From Williamsia herbipolensis (GTDB lineage: Bacteria > Actinomycetota > Actinomycetes > Mycobacteriales > Mycobacteriaceae), in contig NZ_JXYP01000028.1 in NCBI RefSeq assembly GCF_000964005.1, positions 62,001 to 126,000 of the forward strand: a stretch of DNA of 64,000 bases. The letters are read 5' to 3'. This document shows positions 29,109 to 64,000 of this stretch, one piece after another; within the stretch, counting starts at the first letter, position 1, and each line of letters starts with the position of its first letter. The notes under the pieces were generated by a model, which was not told the origin of the DNA, made no database searches, and was given only the letters and a program-made list of their open reading frames with translations. Both the position numbers and the translations under genes were made by a program.

Positions 29109-30254
29109 ATGAGCGTCATCGTGGCCGAACCGGGTCTGTCCAATGTGTCGGTGGCACACACCGAGATCGGGGATGTGCGCGGCGAGGAGGGCTTCTACCA
29201 GTACCGGCAGTACAACGCCGTCTCCCTCGCGCGGTACCGCACGTTCGAGGAGGTGTGGTTCCTGTTCGTCCACGGTCGCCTCCCTGAGGCCTACGAGCTC
29301 GACCGTTTCGTGAACGAGGTGCGGTCCCTGCGCACGATCGGCGACGACCTGATGTCGGTGATCCGAGTGGTCGCCGCCACCGGTGGCGGTCGTCGGCCGC
29401 TGATCGGCCTGCGTACCGTGCTGTCGTCGCTCGCCGAGCTCGAGGGGATGGCACCGCTGTGGGACGCCGATCCGGACACGCGCGTCCGGCATGCCCTGCG
29501 GGTCTGCGCGGTGACACCGACCATTTTGGCTGCCCTGCACCGCATCTCGAACGGCGACGAACCGGTGCCGGCCCGCGACGATCTCGACACCGCCGCCCAC
29601 TGGCTGCACACGATCACCGGCGAGGTGCCCACACCCGAACACGCCCGGGCCGTCGAGCAGTACCTGATCGCGACCATCGACCACGGTTTCAACGCGTCGA
29701 CCTTCACCGCCCGCGTGATCGCCTCGACCGGTGCAGATCTGGTGTCCGCTGTCTGCGGCGCCGTTGGCGCGTTCTCCGGGCCGCTGCACGGCGGCGCACC
29801 CGACCGCGCACTCGACTCCCTCGACGAGATCGCGCTGACCGGTGGCGCCGAGGCGGCCACCGAATGGGCCCGTGGGCAGATGGCGGCGGGTGCACGGATC
29901 ATGGGTTTCGGTCATGCGGTGTACCGCACCGTCGATCCCCGTTCGGAGTTGCTGCGGGACATCGCGATCGGCCTCGGCGGCGACACGGTCGACCTGGCCG
30001 TCGAGGTGGAGCGCGCGGTGGTGTCGGAGTTGGCCCGATCGCATCCCGACCGTCCGCTGTACGCCAACGTCGAGTTCTACGCGGGCGTGGTGATGGACCG
30101 CTGCGGGATACCGCGGACCATGTTCACACCGACCTTCACCATGAGCCGGGTGGTCGGTTGGTGCGCCAACATCCTCGAGCAGGCCCAGAGCCGCAAGATC
30201 ATCCGACCCCGCGCGACGTACGTGGGACCGGAGGTGGTGGAGCTCGTGAGCTGA
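29109..30254 (+). CDS. Citrate/2-methylcitrate synthase homologue
   Basis: A 381-residue citrate synthase family member that would join an acyl-CoA to oxaloacetate. FSGPLHGGAPDRAL and MGFGHAVYRTVDPRS contain the two catalytic histidines. The block usually NVDFYSG, whose aspartate is the catalytic base, reads NVEFYAG, a Glu in place of Asp. A GAGGAG ribosome site precedes the ATG. It diverges from the HTH-fused homologue. Because of the substitution and partnership I regard it as a paralogue and not the housekeeping gltA. Confidence 0.88.
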   Translation: MSVIVAEPGLSNVSVAHTEIGDVRGEEGFYQYRQYNAVSLARYRTFEEVWFLFVHGRLPEAYELDRFVNEVRSLRTIGDDLMSVIRVVAATGGGRRPLIGLRTVLSSLAELEGMAPLWDADPDTRVRHALRVCAVTPTILAALHRISNGDEPVPARDDLDTAAHWLHTITGEVPTPEHARAVEQYLIATIDHGFNASTFTARVIASTGADLVSAVCGAVGAFSGPLHGGAPDRALDSLDEIALTGGAEAATEWARGQMAAGARIMGFGHAVYRTVDPRSELLRDIAIGLGGDTVDLAVEVERAVVSELARSHPDRPLYANVEFYAGVVMDRCGIPRTMFTPTFTMSRVVGWCANILEQAQSRKIIRPRATYVGPEVVELVS

Positions 30255-30276: not shown

Positions 30277-30730
30277 ATGACGTTGCCACCGCGGGTGAGC
30301 GCGATCGTGTTCGACTGCGATGGTCTGCTTCTCGACACCGAGAGCTGCTGGTCACGTGCCGAGGCAGCCTTGTTCGCCGAGCACGGCCACGAATTCGGGC
30401 CGGCCGAGAAGGACATGCTCATCGGACGATCGGTCCCCGCCGCACCTCGACAGCTACGTCGAGGTCTCGATGACCGCCGACGACGTCGCCCACGCCAAAC
30501 CTCATCCCGAGCCCTACCTTGTGGCGTTCGAGCGGCTCGGCGCTCGACCGTCGGACGGTGTGGCCCTCGAGGATTCGTCGACGGGTGTGGTTGCGGCGCA
30601 GACGGCGGGGGCCTTCGTGATCGCGGTGCCCTCACAGGCGGGGAAGGCACTGTCCGCGGACTTCGTCACCCACGCGCTGACCGACCCGGAGATCGTGGCG
30701 TGGGGAAGGACTGTGCGGGAACTCGAATGA
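30277..30730 (+). pseudogene. HAD-superfamily phosphatase, internally deleted and frameshifted
   Basis: A beta-phosphoglucomutase-like HAD hydrolase remnant. The start (IVFDCDGLLLDTE, motif I with both aspartates, to LIGRSVPAA) is in one frame; the end (HAKPHPEPYL with the motif III lysine, then VALEDSSTGV, motif IV) is in a second. The junction is near 30437. The cap domain and motif II, some 70-90 residues, are missing, so this cannot be a functional enzyme. A hairpin at 30732-30767 follows. Confidence 0.85.
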
Positions 30731-30731
30731 G

Positions 30732-30767
30732 GTGGAAGTGGATCGGCGGCGTGACGCCTCCTTCCAC
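30732..30767 (+). terminator. Hairpin after the HAD remnant
   Basis: GTGGAAG at 30732-30738 pairs with CTTCCAC at 30761-30767, enclosing an inner GGCGT-G-ACGCC stem. It begins right after the HAD stop codon and lies just before the helR promoter, so it would keep read-through out of helR. Confidence 0.6.
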
Positions 30768-30788
30768 TCTCAAGATATAGCGCAGTGG

Positions 30789-30807
30789 GGGTCTTGCCGC
30801 AAGACCC
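30789..30807. promoter_or_regulatory. Rifamycin-associated element (RAE)
   Basis: GGGTCTTGC-C-GCAAGACCC is a perfect 9-1-9 inverted repeat matching the known rifamycin-associated element (consensus about GGGGCTTGCGGCAAGGCCC), found before rifamycin-inactivating and helR genes in actinomycetes. It overlaps a TTGCCG -35-like hexamer (30795-30800), which is 18 bp from CATACT (30819-30824), a plausible -10. The helR GTG is 40 bp downstream. Confidence 0.85.
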
Positions 30808-30846
30808 TGTGCTCGTTGCATACTCGCTGGCCACACCGCCGATCGA

Positions 30847-33057
30847 GTGAATCGAGACCCTCACGTGCCTTCGCCGACCCTGTCCGCGTTCGCCCTCCCC
30901 GACAGCCGCGCCGCGAAGGCCGATCCGTGTCTCATCCGCGGCGACGAGCAGCACTTCGCGGACATAGCGGCCACGCTGGACGCGTCGATCACCGAGCTCA
31001 CAGGTCGGCTCGCGGTCCTGCGGTCGAGTCCGGGTGGTACCGGACGCGCGGCGATGGATCGCGACATGGAGATCCATCGCCTCACCGCGCGCGTGCGGAC
31101 TCTGCGTCGCTACGGCATCGATCTGTGTCTCGGCCATATGGTTGCCGAGGACGATCCGCAGCCGGTCTACATCGGCCGACTCGGACTGACCGACGAGTCG
31201 GGGCGGACCCTGTTGCTCGATTGGCGCGCACCCGCCGCCGAACCGTTCTCCGGTGCCACCCATGCCCGGCCGATGGGGCTGGCGCGACGGCGTCGATTCC
31301 GATGGGAGTTGGGGCGGGTCACCGACTACTGGGACGAGGTGTTCCTCGCCGACGGTGCGGAGCGTGGTCACCCGGAGCCGACGCTCGACGATCAGTCCGC
31401 GTTCATCGCGAGTCTCGGCGCGGACCGATCACCGCGGATGCGCGACGTGCTGGGCACGATCGCTGCCGATCAGGACGCGATCATCCGCGCGGGGTCGCGC
31501 GGTGCACTCGTCGTCGACGGTGGGCCGGGCACCGGCAAGACCGTGGTGGCGCTGCATCGCACCGCGTATCTCCTCTACTCCGATCCACGGCTCGGCCACC
31601 ACCGTGGCGGGGTGCTCTTCATCGGTCCCCACGATCCGTATCTCGCGTACATCGGTGATGTCCTGCCCAGCCTCGGCGAGGAAGGGGTGCAGACCGCGAC
31701 GCTGCGCGATCTGGTCGCCGAGGGCGCCGAAGCCGAGGTCGAGGCCGATCCCGTTGCGGTCGGGGTGAAGTCGTCGCTGTCGATGCTCGACGCCGTCGAA
31801 TCCGCGGTGGCGTTCTACGAGGATCCACCCACCGTGGGCATGACGGTCGAGACCGAGTGGGGCGATGTCCGATTGCGTCCGTCGGACTGGGCGGCCGCGT
31901 TCGACGCCGTGGAGCGGGGCACACCGCACAACGAGGCGCACGAGAGCATCTGGGATGCACTGGTCGACATCGTCGGGGCCACTGTCGACGACGTGCCGCC
32001 GGCGGAGCTACGGAAGTCGTTGCAGCGCAACCGTGACCTGACCTCGACGCTCGTGCGGGCGTGGCCGATGATCGAAGCGGCCGATCTCGTCGGCGATCTG
32101 TGGTCGGTGCCGGCATACCTCCGTGCGTGCGCTCCGTGGCTCGGCGCGCAGGAACTCGCCGCGGTGCGCCGAACGGCCGGCGGGCCGTGGACCGACGCCG
32201 ATCTCCCCCTGCTGGACGCCGCGCGGCGTCGACTCGGCGATCCCGAGGCGTCACGGCGTCGGTCGTCACAACGCGGCGCGATCGAGGCCGAACGCGCGCG
32301 CAGGGCCGCCGTGGTCGACGACCTCATCGCCGCCGACAGCGCGGACACCAACGGCGGGGACTCCGACGGCGACGGTGACAGCACGAGTCTGGTGACGATG
32401 CTGCGCGGTGGTCATCTCCACGAGGTCCTCATCGACGAGGCCGCCCGCCCGACGGCCGACCCCGACCGGTTGGCGGGCCCGTTCGCGCACATCGTGGTCG
32501 ACGAGGCGCAAGAACTGACCGACGCCCAGTGGCGGATGCTCGTCTCCCGCTGTCCGTCGAGGAGTTTCACGATCGTCGGGGATCGGGCACAGGCTCGCGG
32601 CGGGTTCGCCGAGAGCTGGCGGCAGCGCCTCGGACGGATAGGTCTCGATCGCGTCGAGTCGGCGTCGCTGCGCATCAACTACCGCACCCCGGGCGAGGTG
32701 ATGGACCTCGCCGCGCCCGCGATCCGCGCAGCGCTGCCCGACGCGAACGTCCCGACCTCCATCCGCCGCAACGGCATCGCGGTGGATCACCGGCCGCGTC
32801 GAGAGCTGCACCTGATCGTCGAGGCATGGCTGGCCGAGCACGAGACGGGTGTCGCCTGCGTCATCGGCGACCCGGCGTTCCCAGGGACCGCGAGGGTCCG
32901 GTCGTTGCCGCCGGAGCTGGTCAAGGGTCTGGAGTTCGACCTGGTGGTGCTCGTCGAACCCGAGTCGTTCGGCGACGGCATCGGCGGCGCGGTCGACCGC
33001 TACGTGTCGATGACCCGGGCGACGCAGCGGTTGGTCATCCTGAGCGACGAACCCTGA
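30847..33057 (+). CDS. helR: HelR/HelD-type RNA polymerase-associated helicase
   Basis: A 736-residue superfamily-1 helicase-like protein of the HelD family. A helical N-terminal arm (residues 30-100) precedes Walker A GGPGTGKT (225-232), Walker B IVVDEAQEL (about 549-557), and the C-terminal ELVKGLEFDLVVLVEP and YVSMTRATQRL motifs. HelD proteins remove RNA polymerase from stalled complexes. Streptomyces HelR also dislodges rifamycin from the polymerase and is induced through an RAE. The perfect RAE 40 bp upstream makes the HelR assignment strong. Confidence 0.9.
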   Translation: MNRDPHVPSPTLSAFALPDSRAAKADPCLIRGDEQHFADIAATLDASITELTGRLAVLRSSPGGTGRAAMDRDMEIHRLTARVRTLRRYGIDLCLGHMVAEDDPQPVYIGRLGLTDESGRTLLLDWRAPAAEPFSGATHARPMGLARRRRFRWELGRVTDYWDEVFLADGAERGHPEPTLDDQSAFIASLGADRSPRMRDVLGTIAADQDAIIRAGSRGALVVDGGPGTGKTVVALHRTAYLLYSDPRLGHHRGGVLFIGPHDPYLAYIGDVLPSLGEEGVQTATLRDLVAEGAEAEVEADPVAVGVKSSLSMLDAVESAVAFYEDPPTVGMTVETEWGDVRLRPSDWAAAFDAVERGTPHNEAHESIWDALVDIVGATVDDVPPAELRKSLQRNRDLTSTLVRAWPMIEAADLVGDLWSVPAYLRACAPWLGAQELAAVRRTAGGPWTDADLPLLDAARRRLGDPEASRRRSSQRGAIEAERARRAAVVDDLIAADSADTNGGDSDGDGDSTSLVTMLRGGHLHEVLIDEAARPTADPDRLAGPFAHIVVDEAQELTDAQWRMLVSRCPSRSFTIVGDRAQARGGFAESWRQRLGRIGLDRVESASLRINYRTPGEVMDLAAPAIRAALPDANVPTSIRRNGIAVDHRPRRELHLIVEAWLAEHETGVACVIGDPAFPGTARVRSLPPELVKGLEFDLVVLVEPESFGDGIGGAVDRYVSMTRATQRLVILSDEP

Positions 33058-33087: not shown

Positions 33088-33795
33088 GTGACTCGTTTCC
33101 GCGACCTCGCCGCCCTTGATGCGGCCGTCACGCAGTGTCGGGCGTGCCCGCGGTTGGTCGAATGGCGTGAGCGCGTCGCCCGCGAGAAGCGACGCGCTTT
33201 CGCCGACGAGACCTATTGGGGCCGGCCGGTACCCGGCATCGGACCAGCCGACGCCGCGTTCCTCATCATCGGGCTCGCACCGGCGGCGCACGGCGCCAAT
33301 CGCACGGGTCGGATGTTCACCGGCGACCGCAGCGGGGATGTCCTGTTCGCGGCGCTGCACGCGGTGGGCCTCGCCAACCAACCGACGTCGGTCTCCGCCG
33401 ACGACGGACTGACCCTGCGCGGCACCCGGATCACCGCGCCGGTGCACTGCGCTCCCCCGGCGAACAAGCCGACGCCCGCCGAACGCGACGAGTGTTCGCA
33501 CTGGCTGCACTCGGAACTGACGTTGCTCGCCCCGACGGTGCGATCGGTGATGTCGCTCGGCGCCTTCGGATGGCGGGCCGCTCTCACCGTGCTGGGCGAG
33601 CACGGTTACGCGATACCCGTACCGCGGCCGGTGTTCGGTCACGGCGTGTCGGTCGACCTCGCCGGCGACGGCCTGCCCCCGCTCCGTCTGTTCGGCAGCT
33701 ATCACGTGAGCCAGCAGAACACCTTCACCGGTCGGCTCACGCCGGCGATGCTCGAGGCCGTGTTACGCGAGGCAGCCGATTACGCCGGGTTGTGA
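33088..33795 (+). CDS. udgB: Family 5 uracil-DNA glycosylase
   Basis: A 235-residue iron-sulphur uracil-DNA glycosylase (UdgB). Motif A is [19 protein letters not shown], which lacks the polar catalytic Asp/Asn of other UDG families, as is normal in family 5. Motif B is [16 protein letters not shown]. Cluster cysteines are in [22 protein letters not shown] and DECSHWL. It excises uracil and other deaminated bases, a fitting task in a high-GC genome prone to cytosine deamination. M. tuberculosis Rv1259 is the counterpart. Confidence 0.93.

Positions 33796-61333: not shown

Positions 61334-64000
<2,667 letters not shown>

Follow-up and report, generated by a model that had tools for sequence, protein, structure and literature searches.

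A rifamycin-associated element as the possible core of a two-way promoter module ahead of helR in Williamsia herbipolensis

The RAE and the predicted promoters at helR

The subject of this analysis is a window of 64,000 nucleotides from Williamsia herbipolensis (contig NZ_JXYP01000028.1, positions 62,001 to 126,000 of the forward strand), and within it the gene helR and the rifamycin-associated element (RAE) that precedes it. The RAE is a perfect 9-1-9 palindrome, GGGTCTTGCCGCAAGACCC, located at 30789-30807. Comparison with other RAE sites suggests that it is the core of a longer, roughly 53-base module in which the palindrome is flanked on either side by a -10-like hexamer, the two hexamers being on opposite strands. 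The features concerned are listed below with the evidence for each.

30789..30807, no strand: RAE, perfect 9-1-9 palindrome of 19 bp (sequence, search with the published consensus)
30794..30799, + strand: -35-like TTGCCG within the RAE (sequence, position frequencies)
30797..30802, - strand: -35-like TTGCGG within the RAE (sequence, position frequencies)
30819..30824, + strand: predicted helR -10, CATACT, 19-base spacer (nAnnnT at this place in 183/183 sites)
30772..30777, - strand: predicted reverse -10, TATCTT (TAnnnT), 19-base spacer (TAnnnT at this place in 179/183 sites)
30774..30779, - strand: alternative reverse -10, TATATC, overlapping TATCTT, 17-base spacer (sequence)
30728..30772, no strand: hairpin upstream of the palindrome, counterpart of a conserved covarying hairpin (RNA fold, covariation)
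30865..33057, + strand: helR, 730 amino acids from the likeliest start, GTG 30865 (NF041254 score, alignment of HelR starts, start in the congener G120)

The RAE is reportedly to be attributed to Spanogiannopoulos (2014). When its published consensus is compared with the palindrome, there are two mismatches on one strand and three on the other. With up to three mismatches allowed, 30789-30807 is the sole match in the 64 kb, against a mean of 0.02 in shuffled sequence. The original prediction had named an RAE-type 9-1-9 palindrome that overlaps the -35 of the gene, and this is borne out: the 19-mer is perfect, and TTGCCG lies inside it, -35-like by its sequence alone. In the literature, the RAE is described as a 19-bp palindrome over the -35 of rifamycin-resistance genes (PMC10719064, PMC12802891; here and below, cited papers are represented by excerpts). 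The site in the window is such a palindrome, of 19 bp and 9-1-9 in form, placed over a -35-like sequence and upstream of a rifamycin-resistance gene. TTGCCG, followed 19 bases later by CATACT, makes a plausible promoter for helR.

A few related candidates were dropped. The same genome has two weaker RAE sites, with two mismatches, where the backwards control gives three, and neither of the two matches the 53-base pattern within three mismatches. An extension of the dyad symmetry past the palindrome was given up, as the flanks differ base for base in the consensus, which was read by eye. A MerR-like layout, with its 19-bp spacers, was set aside, the palindrome centre being by estimate at about -33 and outside the spacer.

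RAE sites in the order and the genes behind them

The pattern GGGNCTTGCNGCAAGNCCC was found exactly in 225 of 397 genomes of the order, and the same pattern read backwards in two (G181 and G238; counted by eye). An earlier phylum-wide pattern, matching 13 of 396 genomes, was too strict, missed the window itself and was not used for the distribution. For a closer survey, helR loci were chosen by protein and blind to the RAE (n = 110, in sets of 30 and 80). An RAE was called when at least 14 of its 16 fixed places matched in the stretch searched, and it was present at 85 of the 110 loci. It was also present in 14 of 20 upstream regions of HelD-type genes, a type assigned by 37-41% identity alone. 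A further set was chosen through an exact RAE and comprises 75 listed sites, none from the window's own family, as well as the sites of the genus. The 183 sites used below are made up of 138 helR, 14 helD, 13 arr, ten rox or rox-like, four rph and one rgt, along with three others, namely two helR remnants and L195. As the RAE itself led to 53 of the 138 helR loci that bear one, the fair count for helR is 85 of 110.

The genes behind the 75 listed sites were assigned in 74 cases, all to rifamycin-type genes, and in each of these a resistance gene or its remnant came first on the gene side. They comprise 53 helR and four arr (by tblastn), ten rox or rox-like, four rph, one rgt and two helR remnants (L176 by profile, L148 by eye), while L195 extends past the end of its contig. 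For four of the ten, the rox label exceeds its cut-off. Three others (L159, L204 and L206) satisfy a related monooxygenase model, L172 and L200 are more weakly related, and L147 holds a fragment. For the four rph stretches, which are cut by the locus ends, and for rgt, a rifamycin model was the best match, yet below its cut-off.

A phage-borne RAE was also considered, as three viral contigs (L235, L236 and L237) match the 19-mer exactly. In the stretches examined, tblastn found neither arr nor helR, and the flanks do not carry the module. These matches are probably due to chance.

A two-way module around the palindrome

The consensus upstream of helR reads ctCCcttCCacTtTCAAC.TATAGCGCACcgG, then GGGGCTTGCGGCAAGaCCC, then cGGtcgtGcCGCAgAaTCGCcggCC. 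Close versions of it precede rox and rph, and arr has a looser one. On the gene strand, nAnnnT follows the TTGC hexamer of the palindrome after a 19-base spacer at every one of the 183 sites. On the opposite strand, TAnnnT stands at the same spacing from the reverse TTGC hexamer in all but four, and this element is distributed over the classes as helR 137/138, helD 14/14, arr 13/13, rox 9/10, rph 4/4 and rgt 1/1, with one of the three remaining sites. Both -10-like elements occur in all 99 RAE sites that were chosen by protein (85 helR and 14 HelD-type). A TATA with a 17-base spacer overlaps the reverse TAnnnT in 161 of the 183.

The full two-sided pattern of 53 bases is present in 98 of 200 genomes of the order, and its backwards control in none. 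Within this sample, 98 of the 102 RAE-bearing genomes carry it (tables read by eye). The arrangement is read as two back-to-back promoters which share the palindrome as their -35 region. At L148 and L176, an exact RAE is followed only by a C-terminal remnant of helR; here the reverse -10 is lost and the palindrome is kept.

The hairpin upstream of the RAE

A hairpin just upstream of the RAE had been proposed, and it is indeed found at 30728-30772. It folds with -22.9 kcal/mol on the + strand (z -2.5) and -21.4 kcal/mol on the - strand (z -2.8), and six of 200 shuffles fold as well as the former. In the fixed-arm test, seven of ten places of the stem are kept in the window.

Across the sites, the 3' arm of the hairpin lies at a fixed distance from the RAE. 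The covariation of its arms was assessed by pairing each 3' arm with its own upstream stretch, or with that of another site, in 2000 permutations. Over the 183 sites, 6.91 of 10 places were complementary in own pairs and 6.10 in crossed ones (z 12.8, uncorrected). The own value was 7.06 for helR, 7.3 for rox, 7.75 for rph and 6.64 for helD, each above the crossed value. A first comparison of stems (20.7 against 17.0) used a single-base shuffle only and was replaced by this test.

Strong stems, with at least eight of ten pairs, are present at 72 of the 183 sites. On the reverse strand of these, the first two places of the tail have T at frequencies of 0.68 and 0.71, the background being 0.18, and the next six at 0.28-0.54. 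On the gene-strand side, only about three T follow. In these sites, the best reading of the hairpin is that of a terminator acting on transcripts that would leave the RAE away from the gene.

The original prediction had assigned the hairpin another role, that of isolating the helR promoter from a decayed HAD gene upstream. As stated, this is not supported: the hairpin covaries before helR, helD, rox and rph, and at the strong-stem sites the T-rich tail is on the side opposite to the gene. Furthermore, G120 keeps the flank and the stem, though no HAD match was found beside its helR. In the window itself, the stem overlaps the end of the HAD remnant and the tail on the far side is not T-rich, and a local role as a terminator may still apply there.

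The HelR protein

The gene had been called a member of the HelD family, and the profiles agree with this and refine it. The reading frame scores 1154.8 bits against the NCBIfam model NF041254 (motor_HelR; cut-off 750). It remains below the cut-off for motor_HelR_2 (421.8 bits; cut-off 1100) and for HelD_MYCSM (378 bits; cut-off 1051). A longer reading from GTG 30847 would give 736 amino acids. GTG 30865 is the likelier start because the residues upstream of it do not have much counterpart in 13 relatives, and G120 starts there too.

By sequence, the closest solved chain is M. smegmatis HelD (6YXU and seven more entries; E 2.2e-98), with residues 32-732 of HelR aligned to its residues 12-709. 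The Walker A motif (GGPGTGKT, 225-232), the Walker B motif (DEAQE, 552-556) and DWR (125-127) are all intact. In M. smegmatis HelD, the loop tip 482-DDED-485 extends as far as the magnesium of the active site, and rifampicin would collide with D485 (PMC7749160, PMC11464796). The corresponding stretch in the window is as follows.

32359..32379, + strand: acidic tip of the primary-channel loop, D-S-D-G-D-G-D, residues 505-511 in the 736-residue numbering (alignments; limits and role of the loop from PMC7749160)

D505, D507, D509 and D511 thus fall in the stretch that aligns to the HelD loop tip. It had been proposed that an alignment placing the protein in a HelD class that lacks the loop to the rifamycin site would refute the prediction; the sequence alignment instead has the loop, and the window protein is one with a primary-channel loop and an acidic tip. 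The tip is the longest among the 14 HelR aligned, and the G120 version is shorter. This acidic, glycine-rich lengthening is encoded at 32338-32379.

In a tree of 62 rows, built with no HelD outgroup and with its bootstrap unsettled, the window protein and that of G120 group together at 100/99; the two are nested in a starred clade that comprises 11 members of the family. The window protein sits on a long branch, with 0.56 changes per column against 0.31 for G120, and may have changed fast. A structure predicted from 26 HelR sequences was too poor to be used (mean pLDDT 55.6, pTM 0.42).

arr, rpoB and other rifamycin defences

A second, identical copy of the 19-mer is present in the same genome on contig 49, ahead of an arr-type open reading frame. 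The frame scores 152.6 bits against Pfam Arr-ms (cut-off 25) and 187.1 against NCBIfam rifampin_ARR (cut-off 130).

L002:1008-1519, contig 49: arr, rifampin ADP-ribosyltransferase, with a -10-like CACCAT in the same place as at helR
About 63500..63580, - strand: resistance-determining region of rpoB, a gene cut by the window end (translation)

This arr would be a second member of the same switch. Because the 19-mer before it is identical, the drug is predicted to be inactivated too, and HelR is not the sole predicted defence. The expectation of protection without a target mutation is therefore kept in part: HelR does lie under an RAE in a genome with a susceptible rpoB, and the idea of HelR as the lone protection is not supported, given the RAE-arr pair. 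The resistance-determining region of rpoB carries the wild-type, susceptible sequence. The original prediction had placed this wild-type rpoB beside helR; its wild-type state stands, and 'beside' is generous for genes some 30 kb apart. Being the common state, a wild-type rpoB needs no explanation. Besides helR, the genome (G000) has a second match of HelD/HelR type.

Among eight species of the genus, HelR (E at most 1e-100) was found in two, and an RAE with at most one mismatch in seven. All 11 RAE sites precede arr (nine) or helR (two), as determined by tblastn. With one mismatch allowed, the backwards control has matches too, in three of the eight genomes, so that the weight of this result lies with the genes that follow the sites. 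In the genus, the RAE-arr pair is kept widely and helR only sporadically.

Neighbouring genes and history of the locus

The genes on both sides of helR are as follows.

29109..30254, + strand: citrate synthase family gene, left neighbour (PF00285, synteny)
30277..30731, + strand: decayed HAD-family phosphatase gene with an internal deletion and a frame change, outside the switch (profiles, comparison with congeners)
33088..33795, + strand: uracil-DNA glycosylase superfamily gene, right neighbour (PF03167, synteny)

The decay of the HAD gene, claimed earlier, is real. Two congeners have an open HAD gene at the same place (225 amino acids in L054), and the remnant in the window has lost an estimated 70 codons or so internally, along with a change of frame. 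Between citrate synthase and uracil-DNA glycosylase, the congeners G107 and G079 carry the open HAD gene and other open reading frames. In the window, the HAD gene with its deletion is followed by helR and then directly by the glycosylase gene, and in the corresponding interval of G120 helR is present, a HAD match not being found. In congeners, this interval also holds a DUF222/HNH endonuclease look-alike in L052 to L054 and an AAC(3)-type acetyltransferase look-alike in L052 and L053, both labelled by eye; neither kind of gene is present between helR and the glycosylase gene in the window.

The HelR protein is 70% identical to that of the congener and up to 71% identical to those of other orders. 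A horizontal gain of helR was suspected from these similar values and from its presence in few congeners. It was dropped as the leading idea because the window protein and that of G120 group at 100/99 and the gene occupies the same interval in both. The data fit an inherited helR that was lost in other species of the genus.

Proposed mechanism and alternatives

The reading preferred here is that the locus is an inducible rifamycin-defence gene under back-to-back promoters that a dimer bound to the RAE would block, with arr under the same switch; we give it a probability of about 0.6. A putative rifamycin-responsive protein dimer would sit on the palindrome and shut both promoters. The drug, or its effect, would free the dimer, and the gene-side promoter would then make helR mRNA, while the reverse promoter would make only a tiny RNA, of an estimated 40 nucleotides, stopped at the hairpin. 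The control of helR by the RAE is taken over by homology. So is the action of the product: HelR is described in the literature as inserting its N-terminal arm and acidic loop into RNA polymerase, clearing the stalled complex and expelling the drug, and the window protein would do the same. A dimeric repressor over both promoters is favoured because the 16 fixed places of the palindrome exceed what two -35 hexamers need. The sequence layout, its conservation and its association with rifamycin genes at the assigned sites are observed, and the use of both -10 elements and the binding of a regulator at the palindrome are inferred.

A wider form of this idea is put forward more tentatively, as somewhat less likely to hold than to fail. 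Here helR, helD, rox, rph, rgt and arr would all lie behind a two-way promoter whose two halves share the RAE as their -35 core. The tiny reverse RNA would usually end at the hairpin, and contact with rifamycin would be turned into the expression of resistance genes through competition or joint repression at the RAE.

Several observations weigh against the preferred reading and its wider form. An RAE was not found in the stretch searched at 25 of the 110 protein-chosen helR loci, four of which have an RAE core farther upstream, one of them degenerate. The 183 sites share ancestry, and their counts are not independent events. Among the first gene-side genes of the 74 assigned sites there was no candidate regulator; genes farther away or on the other side were not examined. 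The covariation value of z 12.8 includes no correction for lineage base composition, and 111 of the 183 sites fall below the strong-stem threshold. At the arr sites the hairpin is missing (5.38 own against 5.88 crossed). The T-rich tail bases could in part be an extension of the stem, and the reverse-strand tail of the hairpin in the window is not T-rich. Moreover, a gene-strand promoter in M. smegmatis starts about 20 bp upstream of the RAE (PMC10719064), a promoter that is explained neither by a dimeric repressor nor by direct sensing through the polymerase.

This last promoter lends itself to the most durable of the alternatives, which we regard as having perhaps one chance in four of being correct. 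It says that the TATA and the hairpin are a second protein-binding site, or a part of an upstream gene-strand promoter of the kind reported for M. smegmatis (PMC10719064), and that only the RAE and the gene-side -10 matter. TAnnnT is a short motif, and its conservation alone is no proof of transcription. However, the gene-strand TATAGC has no final T (C in 98% of the 169 non-arr sites), and no conserved -35 was seen upstream in the consensus. The reverse spacing, on the other hand, is fixed in 179 of the 183 sites, and the terminator-like tail of the strong stems is on the side proper to a reverse promoter.

The blocking of both promoters by a dimer is itself open to question, as the promoters might sense the drug with no regulator protein. 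The reverse promoter would normally take most of the polymerase and make a short terminated RNA, and a rifamycin-bound polymerase would let the gene side win. The reverse -35 is nearer to the consensus hexamer than the gene-side one (3.88 against 3.13 of six matches), and so is the reverse -10 if the 17-base spacer is taken (4.06 against 3.71); with the 19-base spacer it is poorer (3.27). Given such mixed scores, which promoter is the stronger cannot be told. The terminator-like tail in strong-stem sites faces the reverse promoter, and in B. subtilis the sensing of rifampicin at helD does depend on a promoter of the opposite strand that yields a short terminated RNA (PMC12802891). In that species, however, the promoters converge, and overlapping them abolished induction (PMC12802891), whereas here they overlap and point apart; direct sensing is therefore not simply transferable. 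A polymerase stalled at the reverse promoter would, in addition, obstruct the gene side, and the palindrome is fixed at more places than a pair of -35 hexamers would need. Sensing by the promoters alone is thus judged improbable, the dimer-blocked pair remaining the preferred arrangement.

Still less credit is given to the view that the hairpin is an ordinary terminator which insulates helR from the gene upstream. The hairpin folds stably whichever strand is taken, runs into the end of the decayed HAD gene, and lacks a T-rich reverse tail in the window; against this stand its covariation at the same place before four classes of gene and a T-rich tail that, in strong-stem sites, is on the reverse strand, the gene strand having about three T only. 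Lastly, that the gene is a constitutive housekeeping helD with no special role against rifamycin is very improbable, for although HelD proteins recycle stalled polymerase without the drug too (PMC7749160), the HelR score is far above the HelD_MYCSM score, an RAE is present upstream, and the second HelD/HelR-type match in the genome could do the housekeeping.

Comparison with known systems

The HelR proteins of S. venezuelae (SVEN_6029) and M. abscessus (MAB_3189c) resemble that of the window in the NCBIfam family name, the upstream RAE and the loop, a likeness drawn from their descriptions. When compared with 13 relatives, the window protein differs in its longer acidic loop tip and its long branch. 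In S. venezuelae, rox as well as helR is preceded by an RAE (PMC10719064). In M. abscessus, helD/helR and arr are the two most upregulated mRNAs under rifampicin, according to a 2022 review (PMC10719064), and arr is induced together with helR; the same is predicted for the present genome, where one and the same 19-mer joins helR and arr. M. smegmatis HelD (6YXU, 6YYS) shares the class II architecture, and 14 of the 20 HelD-type regions have the same RAE module. It differs in family, the window protein having 378 bits with HelD_MYCSM (cut-off 1051) and 1154.8 with HelR.

The dual-promoter alarm of helD in B. subtilis has an opposite-strand promoter near the helD promoter, its spacer being 19 bp long as in the predicted reverse promoter, and it makes a short terminated RNA (PMC12802891). 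A comparable RNA would be expected here where a T-rich tail follows the hairpin, which holds for the 72 strong-stem sites and not for the window. The two promoters of B. subtilis face each other, their start sites being separated by 39 bp (PMC12802891), whereas the predicted pair at the RAE is arranged back to back with a common -35 region. The convergent layout was not found here, the predicted reverse promoter being directed away from the gene.

HelR, the RAE, the link between the two and the pairing of arr with helR are already known. The regulator of the RAE and the sensing of rifamycins are left open in the excerpts of the 2022 review (PMC10719064) and of a 2026 paper (PMC12802891). What appears to be new is the module with its opposite-strand -10 and covarying hairpin, of which no mention was found in the excerpts of the RAE literature outside the founding papers (Spanogiannopoulos 2014, Surette 2022 and Hurst-Hess 2022), which may say more. 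Should the RAE prove to be the core of a two-way promoter, single-base changes in the flanks of the palindrome would provide clean tests, and one genetic background would suffice to separate sensing by the polymerase from a regulator protein. In its published form the RAE is a 19-bp element that overlaps the downstream one of two sense promoters (PMC10719064, PMC12802891), whereas here it appears as the centre of a longer module, with a -10-like element on the opposite strand and a hairpin beyond it.

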